Shown: positions 27,472-30,142 of the stretch, piece by piece
Position numbering within the stretch: position 1 is the first letter of the stretch
How the letters are laid out: the number at the start of each line of letters is the position of its first letter
Virus record (IMG/VR): IMGVR_UViG_3300030060_003536
Span: 1-36,638 of that record
Source of the DNA: a virus
DNA length: 36,638 nt
Strand: one strand, 5' to 3'
Notes under the pieces: generated by a model
Told to the model about the DNA's origin: nothing
The model's input: the letters and a program-made list of their open reading frames with translations, nothing else
Database searches by the model: none
Translations under genes and position numbers: made by a program

Positions 27472-28161
27472 ATGAATCCTTTTGCAAAGTGGATACACGT
27501 TCAAGCTTTAAAACGTGAAAACCCTTGGTCTTCTGTTTGGCTTGATCCTTTACCGATCTATCGCAAAGAACCTGATCATAAATATATATGGGAACCTACA
27601 AATGAAGCTCTTTTATATTCAACAACTCAGGTATGTAATAACAAAACACCGGAGGCTTTAGCCAATATTGAACGCTATCGTTATGGGCCTGATGGATGGG
27701 AGGCAAGAGGTAAAGCTGTTCATTATGGATTAGAGCAAAAAATGCTAGGTGATCCTAATCCTGAGTTTGGAATATATAGTGAATGGCTTGAACCATTGTT
27801 AAGTCATCCTTTTTTTGAACAGTTTGAACCGTGGTGTACTGAATATATGCTCTGTGATCTTAAGAAGTCTGTTGGAGGTCAATTAGATCTTTTGGGTTAT
27901 GACCATAAGTCAAAAAGATTAATGTTGATTGACCTTAAATCTCAAAGCAAATCAGGCAGAACTTATTCAACTAATGCTCAATTAGGAAGTTATGTGGAGG
28001 CACTAAAGACACATCATGGATTAGAAGTTGATGTATGTAAAACGATTTGGGCTAAACCTAAAAAGACAACCATTGGAGATGATCAACCTGTTAATGAATG
28101 CCTAGATGCTTGGCATAAAGCATGGGAAATATTTGAAGAAAAGCAGGAGATCCCATTTTGA
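27472..28161 (+). CDS. PD-(D/E)XK phage exonuclease
   Basis: 229 aa. Ordered motifs of the RecB/Cas4/lambda-exo nuclease fold: GKAVHYGLEQ (His84), EYML (Glu124), GGQLDLLGYD (Asp139), LIDLKSQ (Asp154, Lys156) and AQLGSYVEAL (Gln170, Tyr174). Such enzymes resect double-strand ends to give 3' tails for an annealing protein, here the DUF1071 gene at 29390. The three genes exonuclease, RusA and annealing protein form a phage recombination module. The stop overlaps the TTG start of the methyltransferase. Confidence 0.8.
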   Translation: MNPFAKWIHVQALKRENPWSSVWLDPLPIYRKEPDHKYIWEPTNEALLYSTTQVCNNKTPEALANIERYRYGPDGWEARGKAVHYGLEQKMLGDPNPEFGIYSEWLEPLLSHPFFEQFEPWCTEYMLCDLKKSVGGQLDLLGYDHKSKRLMLIDLKSQSKSGRTYSTNAQLGSYVEALKTHHGLEVDVCKTIWAKPKKTTIGDDQPVNECLDAWHKAWEIFEEKQEIPF

Positions 28162-28901
28162 CTTTAAAACTAATCGATTGTTTTTCAGGAATAGGTGGTT
28201 TTAGCCTTGCAGCAGAACGAATTGTTGGAGGATTTGAAACTATTCAATTTGTTGAATGTGAACCTTACGCTCAGAAAATTTTAAAAAAACATTGGCCTAA
28301 CGTACCTATCCATGACGACATACGAACCTACCAACCCGAACCATATTCAGCACGAGTTGTTTGCGGAGGATTCCCTTGTACCGACATCAGTATTGCAGGG
28401 GAAGGTCTGGGCATCACCAAAGAAACTAGGTCAGGTCTCTTTTACGAACTCATGCGAGTCATTCGCTTGGTACGACCAGACTTCATCGTCTTGGAAAACG
28501 TGGCAGCGATCCTTAATAACGGATTGGGAATTGTACTCGGAGAATTGGCCTCGGCAAGGTATGACTGTGAATGGTGCTGCATACCTGCAAGTGCATTGGG
28601 AGCCTGTCATCGCAGGGATAGATGGTGGCTTGTCGGAAAGCTTGCCAACTCCAACGGCAAGGGAATGGAAAGACGGATCGAGCCAATCAACCAAGAAATG
28701 CAGAAAACAAGACTCGCTTGGCAGAGCGATACACCACACTTATCCCCCGAATGGAGATCATATGTATCTGAATGCGTTCTTCGTAGAGGAGATGATGGGT
28801 TACGAAATCGGATGGACAGACTTAGGTGCTTAGGGAATAGCGTTGTGCCACAGGTCGCAGCGATACCATTACAAAGAGTTTTAAATCTTGCAAATGAATG
28901 A
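28158..28901 (+). CDS. DNA (cytosine-5) methyltransferase
   Basis: 247 aa, starting at TTG 28158, which has a good ribosome site (CAGGAG, 9 bases upstream). Motif I DCFSGIGGFS (residues 7-16) for S-adenosylmethionine; motif IV GGFPCTDIS with nucleophile Cys74; motif VI LENV (112-115); motif VIII CHRRDRWWLVG (150-160); motif X LGNSVVPQV (225-233). The region between VIII and X, which holds the target recognition domain, is only about 65 residues. It is complete and likely active, protecting phage DNA from restriction. A second gene is nested in its +1 frame. Confidence 0.9.
   Translation: MTLKLIDCFSGIGGFSLAAERIVGGFETIQFVECEPYAQKILKKHWPNVPIHDDIRTYQPEPYSARVVCGGFPCTDISIAGEGLGITKETRSGLFYELMRVIRLVRPDFIVLENVAAILNNGLGIVLGELASARYDCEWCCIPASALGACHRRDRWWLVGKLANSNGKGMERRIEPINQEMQKTRLAWQSDTPHLSPEWRSYVSECVLRRGDDGLRNRMDRLRCLGNSVVPQVAAIPLQRVLNLANE
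28312..28833 (+). CDS. Nested methyltransferase-associated protein (+1 frame)
   Basis: 173 aa, wholly inside the methyltransferase gene. The product has recognisable family text: ELFAEDSLVPTSVLQGKV, SFAWYDQTSSSWKTWQRSL, SENWPRQGMTVNGAAYLQ, LPTPTAREWKDG and a C-terminal NAFFVEEMMGYEIGWTDLGA. Stand-alone phage proteins with WPRSGM..NG, PTPTA..WKG and VEWLMGFP.GWTDL occur beside C5 methyltransferases, as I remember them. Here SSWKTW is simply the +1 reading of the bases for methyltransferase motif VI (IVLENV). The start at ATG 28312 has no clear ribosome site. Function unknown; a regulator or specificity partner is possible. Confidence 0.6.
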   Translation: MTTYEPTNPNHIQHELFAEDSLVPTSVLQGKVWASPKKLGQVSFTNSCESFAWYDQTSSSWKTWQRSLITDWELYSENWPRQGMTVNGAAYLQVHWEPVIAGIDGGLSESLPTPTAREWKDGSSQSTKKCRKQDSLGRAIHHTYPPNGDHMYLNAFFVEEMMGYEIGWTDLGA

Positions 28902-29343
28902 AATTTTTATTCCTGTAATAGGAATCCCTGCTCCTCAAGGAAGTAAAAGACACGTTGGAAATGGGATCATGATTGAAAATAGTAAACGTGTAAAACCTTG
29001 GAGACAGGACGTAAAAGAAGCAGCATTGATTCATTACGATGGGGAAGTTATTGATCAAGCTGTAGAAATAGAAATTATATTTTTATTTGCTAGACCTAAA
29101 AGTCATTATGGAACAGGAAAAAACGCAAGGAAATTAAAACCCTCTGCTCCTGTATTCGTAACAAGTAAAGGAATTGGTGATATAGATAAACTTCAACGGT
29201 CTACATACGATTCTTTATCTGAAAGTAGTGGAGGAAGTGTGATTAAAGATGATTCTTTAATAGTACAAAATAGAAACATGAAAAGGTATTGCGTAGAAGG
29301 AGAAAATCCTGGGGCAAAAATCACGATTAGAACACTTCATTGA
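28894..29343 (+). CDS. rusA: RusA-family Holliday junction resolvase
   Basis: About 149 aa. ATG at 28894 (MNEIFIPVIGIPAPQGSKRH) is preferred over the in-frame TTG at 28888. The family core is clear: GIPAPQGSKR near the start, an aspartate cluster GIGDIDKLQRSTYDSLS (about residue 91-107) and VIKDDSLIVQ. In RusA the DxDK and DD acids bind the metal that cleaves four-way junctions. It follows the methyltransferase with an 8-base overlap and precedes the annealing protein, so it probably resolves recombination intermediates. Confidence 0.82.
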   Translation: MNEIFIPVIGIPAPQGSKRHVGNGIMIENSKRVKPWRQDVKEAALIHYDGEVIDQAVEIEIIFLFARPKSHYGTGKNARKLKPSAPVFVTSKGIGDIDKLQRSTYDSLSESSGGSVIKDDSLIVQNRNMKRYCVEGENPGAKITIRTLH

Positions 29344-29389: not shown

Positions 29390-30142
29390 ATGGCAAACCA
29401 AACCAAACCTAAAGAAGGATCTATTCCTGATTTATCTGGCCTTATTTCAAAAGAAGATCTTCACAAAAAAGGATCTTTTGCCACATATATGAATTGGGCA
29501 AGAACAACTCAATATTTGAGAGAACACGCCCCAAACTGGGAGTTTCATCTTGAATGCAAATTAGACACACAAGAATATGTATGGGCTGCTCCTGACGGAA
29601 CTGGCTATTTGATGTGTTTCTTCAAGAACGGAGAAAAGAAAACACCTTTGTTTCCTTTCCCGATCATGGACAACAGAAACAATCCTTTACCTTTAGAAAA
29701 AATTAGTGCAAGAGATGTCAGCGACTCGCATCGAAGAGGCTTATGTGCCTGTGCTGCCTTTGTGTTTGGATTGGCCTATGAATTATGGGCAAGGATTGAA
29801 ATAGAAGAAGCAGCACGAGTAGATGCGGCTCCTATTAAGAAAGAGATTGCTCGCTCTCCTCAAAGAGGTGCTAACGCTAGACAAGCAAAACCCTCTCCTG
29901 TTGCACATGAAATGGTAACTGGAAAAGTTGCAGAGACTCCGAAAGTATCATTCACAGCAGCCCAAACCAAAAAAGTTCAAGACTTTATGAATGCACATCC
30001 AGAAGGATGGGAGACTCTCGTTGAAACTTTTAATGCTGAGTTCAATAAAACTGGAGGGAAAATAGCTACGAGTGTTACGACTCAAGAGCAAATTACCTTT
30101 GTTCTAGACAGAATAACGGCAGTTGAAAATCTTAGTCGTTAA
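29390..30142 (+). CDS. DUF1071-type single-strand annealing protein (Sak/Erf-like)
   Basis: 250 aa. N-terminal domain: KGSFATYMNWARTTQYLREH, WEFHLECKLD, GTGYLMCFFKNG, FPFPIMDNRNNPLPLEKISA, then SHRRGLCACAAFVFGLAYEL. This YL.WA...K..P..F, PVMD..N.A and late hydrophobic helix order marks DUF1071, a Rad52-superfamily annealing group in phages. The C-terminal third is Pro/Ala/Lys linker plus a helical end. It would anneal ssDNA produced by the exonuclease at 27472. It has its own promoter candidate. Confidence 0.78.
   Translation: MANQTKPKEGSIPDLSGLISKEDLHKKGSFATYMNWARTTQYLREHAPNWEFHLECKLDTQEYVWAAPDGTGYLMCFFKNGEKKTPLFPFPIMDNRNNPLPLEKISARDVSDSHRRGLCACAAFVFGLAYELWARIEIEEAARVDAAPIKKEIARSPQRGANARQAKPSPVAHEMVTGKVAETPKVSFTAAQTKKVQDFMNAHPEGWETLVETFNAEFNKTGGKIATSVTTQEQITFVLDRITAVENLSR

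Follow-up and report, generated by a model that had tools for sequence, protein, structure and literature searches.

What does a second reading frame encode when it lies entirely inside a phage methyltransferase gene, and is it a gene at all? This question is raised by the stretch of DNA analysed here (the window), a viral record of 36,638 nucleotides. A preliminary description, made from the sequence without searches, had pointed to a 173-codon frame read at +1 and wholly contained in a 247-codon frame for a C5-cytosine DNA methyltransferase. Both ORFs are indeed present. In this work, we refer to the outer protein as alpha and to the inner one as beta.

Two reading frames in one phage gene

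The methyltransferase gene belongs to a phage recombination module. It is preceded by an exonuclease gene (phrog_298, 27472-28161) and followed by genes for a RusA-like resolvase (28888-29343) and a Sak-like annealing protein (29390-30142). The alpha start overlaps the stop codon of the exonuclease gene, and the sequence AGGAG is found at 28145-28149, 8 bases 5' of the TTG start codon. The inner +1 frame is open already from 28285, upstream of its ATG at 28312. The outer-frame motifs listed in the preliminary description (I, IV with Cys74, VI, VIII and X) were all located, and their key residues are invariant or nearly so. Frame mapping also agrees with its remark that the inner peptides SSWKT and RQGMTVNG are +1 readings of the codons for motif VI and SARYDCEW: the outer IVLENVAAIL reads SSSWKTWQRSL at +1, and the outer LASARYDCEW reads WPRQGMTVNG. 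The features of the locus are as follows.

28158-28901, + strand: outer ORF, proposed alpha subunit, 247 aa, TTG start, frame 0
28182-28199, + strand: alpha motif I (FSGIGG), from sequence; F9, G11, G13 and G14 invariant in the alignment
28312-28833, + strand: inner ORF, proposed beta subunit, 173 aa, ATG start, +1 relative to the outer frame
28312-28362, + strand: likely beta start region; ATG within the alpha IHDDI stretch, followed by some 17 codons of reduced synonymous change
28365-28379, + strand: alpha motif IV (GGFPC, catalytic Cys74), from sequence; P73 and C74 invariant in the alignment
28450-28584, + strand: beta core (SCESFAWYDQTSSSWKTWQRSLITDWELYSENWPRQGMTVNGAAY), apparently overprinted on alpha motifs V-VIII; dSN 0.130 vs 0.365 upstream
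28494-28502, + strand: alpha motif VI (ENV); E113 and N114 invariant; its +1 reading is part of SSSWKT
28599-28622, + strand: alpha motif VIII (GACHRRDR), from sequence; R153 and R155 invariant in the alignment
28642-28758, + strand: beta TRD-like cassette (LPTPTAREWKDGSSQSTKKCRKQDSLGRAIHH...), the only one in the window phage; from the constraint pattern and related cassettes across distant alphas
28668-28772, + strand: putative alpha filler opposite the beta TRD (residues 171-205); open though unconstrained, pLDDT mostly below 50
28768-28824, + strand: putative beta motif IX (LNAFFVEEMMGYEIGWTDL); family consensus LNPxFVEWLMGFPxGWTDL
28830-28853, + strand: alpha motif X (LGNSVVPQ), at the beta stop; L225, G226, N227 and P231 nearly invariant

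Relatives were gathered via both proteins. In all loci collected, whether retrieved by the inner or by the outer protein, both frames are open and the inner one lies at +1, with an open length of 133-509 codons (the shortest are cut by contig ends). The earlier suggestion that the sequence is still dual-coded in many phages is thus borne out, as every complete relative found keeps both frames. To obtain expected stop numbers, codons were shuffled among identical alpha residues, which preserves the alpha protein and its codon usage. Stops occurring freely in the inner frame of relatives, named in the preliminary description as an argument against a second gene, were not seen: in 22,384 codons from 90 distinct loci there were 0 vs 559 expected, while the +2 control frame of the same loci contained 1593 vs 1582 expected. 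In the window, the +1 frame has 0 stops vs 6.4 expected, a value reached by none of 1000 synonymous shuffles. Three conventional C5 methyltransferases showed no depletion at +1 (20 vs 21.1, 27 vs 27.4 and 31 vs 29.4 expected). To avoid hand-picking open stretches, stops were also counted between the set limits of motifs IV and X; in 80 loci this region contained 5 inner-frame stops vs 464 expected, and these 5 are the normal inner stop codons directly before motif X. Finally, a profile HMM was built from half of the beta proteins and applied to the 45 held-out loci; in all 45, the real beta outscored each of 20 synonymous shuffles. The stop depletion, the HMM test and the conventional-methyltransferase controls rule out that the inner frame is open through chance or codon bias, and the overlap of 28312-28833 with 28158-28901 is confirmed as genuine dual coding.

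Opposite constraint along the overlap

Changes were counted by their effect in both frames, and this overlap-aware check, proposed in the preliminary description, gave whole-frame dN/dS values of 0.35 (0.29-0.42) for alpha and 0.33 (0.25-0.43) for beta. Both intervals exclude 1, and both frames are under purifying selection. Regional constraint was assessed in 26 independent pairs; beta-frame ratios are biased by codon position and must be judged against the flanking values instead of against 1. Upstream of the beta ATG, alpha dNN/dSN is 0.16 and the beta-frame background dNN/dNS is 0.64, and across the catalytic parts alpha dNN/dSN stays at 0.16-0.22. In the beta core (SSSWKT to WPRQGM), the alpha-synonymous rate dSN falls from 0.365 to 0.130, and beta dNN/dNS is 0.33 vs a background of about 0.65. 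After this, dSN climbs to 0.278 directly before the target-recognition domain (TRD). Over the TRD region the constraint is opposite in the two frames: alpha is neutral, with dNN/dSN of 0.98 (0.80-1.23), while beta dNN/dNS is 0.28. The motif IX region has an alpha-synonymous rate of 0.063 and a beta dNN/dNS of 0.20. Past the beta stop the background is restored (dSN 0.425, beta-frame ratio 0.85). A plain count of third-position changes gives the same regional profile. That the inner frame might be conserved only through the amino acids of the methyltransferase, a doubt raised in the preliminary description, does not fit a beta frame that is constrained where alpha is neutral.

Neutral as it is, alpha remains open over the TRD. 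Given the beta protein, 7 alpha stops were found there vs 329 expected, and all 7 belong to two actinophages, L008 and L009, in which alpha truly ends in the TRD region. This part of alpha is best read as filler that needs only to be open so that the ribosome reaches motif X, which lies beyond it in frame 0.

The constraint profile also bears on where beta begins. The ATG inside the alpha IHDDI codons is conserved, and a further synonymous dip follows right after it in the five-codon profile: at codons -60 to -46 relative to ENV, the synonymous difference is 0.10-0.17 vs 0.24-0.39 just before and 0.42-0.47 after. The conserved ATG at 28312 is therefore the likely beta start, from which the inner protein would be translated. 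Neither a Shine-Dalgarno sequence nor any other conserved start signal beyond this ATG was found in the start contexts and the synonymous profile.

Division of the enzyme between alpha and beta

The outer protein is a C5 methyltransferase and a member of PF00145 (1.5e-34) and phrog_363 (1e-63), the PF00145 match being limited to its catalytic part, residues 4-180. The AlphaFold2 model of alpha has a pLDDT of 85; motifs I-VIII and X are confidently placed, and residues 171-205, mostly below 50, lie exactly under the beta TRD. The best PDB match of the model is M.HhaI (E 1.5e-14, about 170 alignment columns). Neither motif IX nor a recognisable TRD is present in alpha, and the conventional single-chain layout, with the TRD and motif IX in the frame of motifs I-VIII, does not apply to it. 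The preliminary description had missed that motif IX is located in the inner frame and not in the outer one.

The inner protein matches phrog_1008, a 329-position profile, at 3.2e-19. This profile is labelled "DNA methyltransferase" but appears to correspond to the beta subunit; it reaches motif X, which is absent from the window beta. No Pfam or NCBIfam match was obtained for the inner protein, and a sequence search against the PDB found no solved structure. The AlphaFold2 model of beta alone is not confident (pLDDT 62), as is expected of a subunit. Its putative motif IX has the P-to-GFP spacing of the conventional motif IX, LTPxExxxLQGFP; the sole hhalign alignment of the beta family to conventional methyltransferases falls on this same motif, at a non-significant probability of 0.2%. 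In the actinophages, the beta motif IX is collinear with motif X.

Between the core and motif IX, each beta carries 1-7 TRD-like cassettes, each starting with (L/W)PTP. These cassettes are exchanged: 122 pairs from 85 loci share cassettes of 70% identity or more, with the catalytic parts of their alphas below 55% identity. One cassette, of the helix-turn-helix type (L069 and relatives, beta frame), has a counterpart within the N6/N4 methyltransferase of Staphylococcus phage Alsa_4 (48% identity over 64 aa), and this counterpart is in frame with the catalytic domain. Recognition domains thus appear to cross between methyltransferase classes. By their position, their exchange and this one case of homology, the cassettes are best read as TRDs. 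The betas of L065, L069 and L071, 413-496 codons long, carry several cassettes, including the helix-turn-helix type.

Because of the constraint, motif IX, the shared helix-turn-helix cassette and the cassette exchange, beta is probably the specificity subunit of the same enzyme, bearing its TRD and motif IX. We consider it highly probable that the product of the locus is a heterodimeric C5-cytosine DNA methyltransferase of the phage, with its subunits encoded in fully overlapping frames, alpha being catalytic and beta providing specificity. Alpha would bind AdoMet and the flipped cytosine, and beta would supply the DNA-recognising small domain with motif IX, its N-terminal core probably docking on alpha. 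In such a complex, the two chains would jointly restore the standard enzyme of large and small domains, with specificity set by the cassettes. Being an orphan phage enzyme encoded within a recombination module, it would most likely protect phage DNA from host restriction.

This reading also bears on the origin of the two frames. The claim that the inner family arose by overprinting on the methyltransferase holds for the N-terminal core over motifs VI-VIII; it does not hold for the TRD and motif IX of beta, which are better explained as ordinary methyltransferase parts shifted to +1. Under this reading, the alpha catalytic part and the beta TRD and motif IX would be native methyltransferase sequence, and the beta core and the alpha filler would be the overprinted halves. 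The nested layout may have come from an ancestral single-chain enzyme through two frame changes flanking the TRD.

The layout itself varies among relatives. In the actinophages L008 (Euratis gp33/34) and L009 (Colucci gp82/83), alpha has its stop after motif VIII, and the TRD, IX and X follow in canonical order in the beta frame; the Colucci beta frame matches phrog_1008 at 7e-105. A rough tree with only three outgroup sequences places the actinophage form inside the nested family, apart from these conventional enzymes, which is only a hint. A relative of the actinophage form on the Streptomyces violaceusniger plasmid pSTRVI02 (L272, 1831-2931) has the core and TRD at +1, with IX and X back in the catalytic frame; decay of the copy, an indel or yet another layout could account for this. 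In L028 (2139-2949), L124, L134 and L156, the beta-frame ORF extends into motif X, and both profiles match the same ORF, possibly through single-base indels in the contigs or an actinophage-like layout.

This actinophage arrangement gives some plausibility to another way of joining the parts, namely programmed ribosomal frameshifting that fuses alpha motifs I-VIII to the beta TRD and IX as one chain, since there a single shift restores a whole enzyme; the lack of a Shine-Dalgarno sequence before the beta ATG would also suit it. A late shift, though, has no need of the constraint observed on beta in the core and just after the conserved ATG, and, with dSN rising again before the TRD, no conserved shift site is seen. 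In the nested form, moreover, motif X lies past the beta stop in frame 0, so one shift would lose it. We regard frameshifting as unlikely.

Still less probable is an unrelated overprinted accessory protein with no part in methyltransferase function. In its favor, beta has no match in Pfam, NCBIfam or the PDB, and the N-terminal core has no known homologue beyond the overlap. However, the beta TRD is constrained where alpha is neutral, the TRD and motif IX missing from alpha are both present in beta, one cassette is shared with another methyltransferase class, and the actinophage beta even has motif X (phrog_1008). That no second protein exists, and the inner ORF only reflects the conservation and codon bias of the methyltransferase, has practically no likelihood. 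The frame-shifted shadow of conserved motifs does give profile matches, and a conventional methyltransferase (L266) read at +1 matched the beta profile at E 9e-14, so profile matches alone were not taken as proof. But shuffling codons under the same alpha protein abolishes both the openness and the inner score, conventional methyltransferases have the expected number of +1 stops, and over the TRD beta is conserved and alpha is not. The evidence as a whole favors the two-subunit enzyme, with beta as its specificity subunit.

Spread, precedents and annotation

A search of viral contigs with the inner-frame profile found 77 further loci, all 77 with an overlapping methyltransferase, and a search of bacterial genomes found 80, of which 78 have the same +1 overlap and 2 are truncated. 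Together, 155 of 157 loci have the overlapping frame-0 methyltransferase, the other 2 being the truncated ones, and no stand-alone inner gene occurs among them. These loci give no support to the view, taken in the preliminary description, that the inner product forms a family of its own which also exists as separate genes and may have been copied to other places. The bacterial loci, assigned to phyla from record titles, come from Actinomycetota, Acidobacteria, Bacillota, Bacteroidota, Chloroflexi, Gemmatimonadota, Planctomycetota, Spirochaetes, Elusimicrobia, Proteobacteria and others. The nested layout was also found on a plasmid of the archaeon Methanomethylovorans hollandica and on Enterobacterales phage-plasmids. 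Among 369 evenly sampled genomes of gammaproteobacterial species, 12 had a match, the seed genome counted. It is quite likely, in our judgment, that these loci represent a large class of C5 methyltransferases in phages, plasmids, many bacterial phyla and one archaeal plasmid, in which the specificity subunit is encoded at +1 inside the catalytic gene. In this class, up to 7 exchangeable cassettes would stand in tandem, with neutral, disordered filler in the other frame; each frame would be part native and part overprinted, and databases would usually hold one half.

Several known systems share parts of this arrangement. The C5 methyltransferases of the SPbeta group of phages, such as M.SPR, are multispecific single chains with tandem TRDs between motifs VIII and IX. 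In these enzymes the TRDs are in the frame and chain of the catalytic motifs, whereas in the window family they are at +1 and the catalytic frame passes through as filler. M.AquI is a natural two-subunit C5 methyltransferase, split between motifs VIII and IX, whose alpha contains motifs I-VIII and part of the variable region and whose beta contains the distal variable region and IX-X. It resembles the actinophages L008 and L009 in having the TRD, IX and X in a second frame or subunit; unlike in M.AquI, motif X of the window is in alpha (28830-28853) and beta is fully nested. Methyltransferases split between motif VIII and the TRD complement efficiently (PMC5944983).

The closest precedent is M.EcoHK31I of E. 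coli (YGGCCR), a two-polypeptide enzyme which, like that of the window, has motifs I-VIII and X in alpha and motif IX in beta; its predicted TRD was placed in alpha (PMC3404938). Lee, Kam and Shaw (1995, NAR 23:103) reportedly described its beta as read from a different frame of the alpha gene. Compared by description, not by sequence, the two enzymes differ in the place of the TRD, as constraint and cassettes place the TRD of the window family in beta. M.EcoHK31I is also part of a restriction-modification system, while the window enzyme is an orphan phage enzyme from a widespread family with 1-7 TRD-like cassettes. Plasmid searches for an M.EcoHK31I-like sequence returned distant relatives only, including Enterobacterial phage-plasmids with the same layout. 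The preliminary description knew of no account of such an arrangement, but the nested two-subunit architecture is already known from M.EcoHK31I; what is probably new is its wide spread and the location of the TRD in beta. The literature, covered in part and so giving weak evidence, yielded no description of nested C5 methyltransferases as a widespread family. Paracoccus phage m5C methyltransferases with relaxed specificity were considered as a source of activity data; for the homologues of these enzymes a length of about 700 aa is given, and no link to the nested family was made.

To our knowledge, only a few long overlaps between genes on the same strand are established in prokaryotes, where they are regarded as rare. 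All complete relatives sampled have the nested methyltransferase overlap; they span many bacterial phyla, and selection is seen separately in both frames. It corrects the place of the recognition domain in the nested type of enzyme and offers a clean system for studying how cassettes are exchanged under the demand that no insertion closes either frame. It also implies that databases lack the specificity subunit of many annotated phage C5 methyltransferases, and a missing subunit would defeat both the cloning of codon-optimised versions and target-site prediction.

In the non-actinobacterial GenBank phage records inspected, only one frame of the two is annotated. As a rule annotators retain a single frame and discard the other, which could make beta look like a stand-alone gene. 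In Microcystis phage Mwe-JY08 (L002, 392-652), the annotated hypothetical protein is a beta-frame fragment, and the methyltransferase frame is unannotated. In Phage C75C1 (L275, 1107-2549), a 480-aa DNA methyltransferase is annotated, and its Gly/Ser/Asn-rich middle is filler over a beta with several cassettes at +1.
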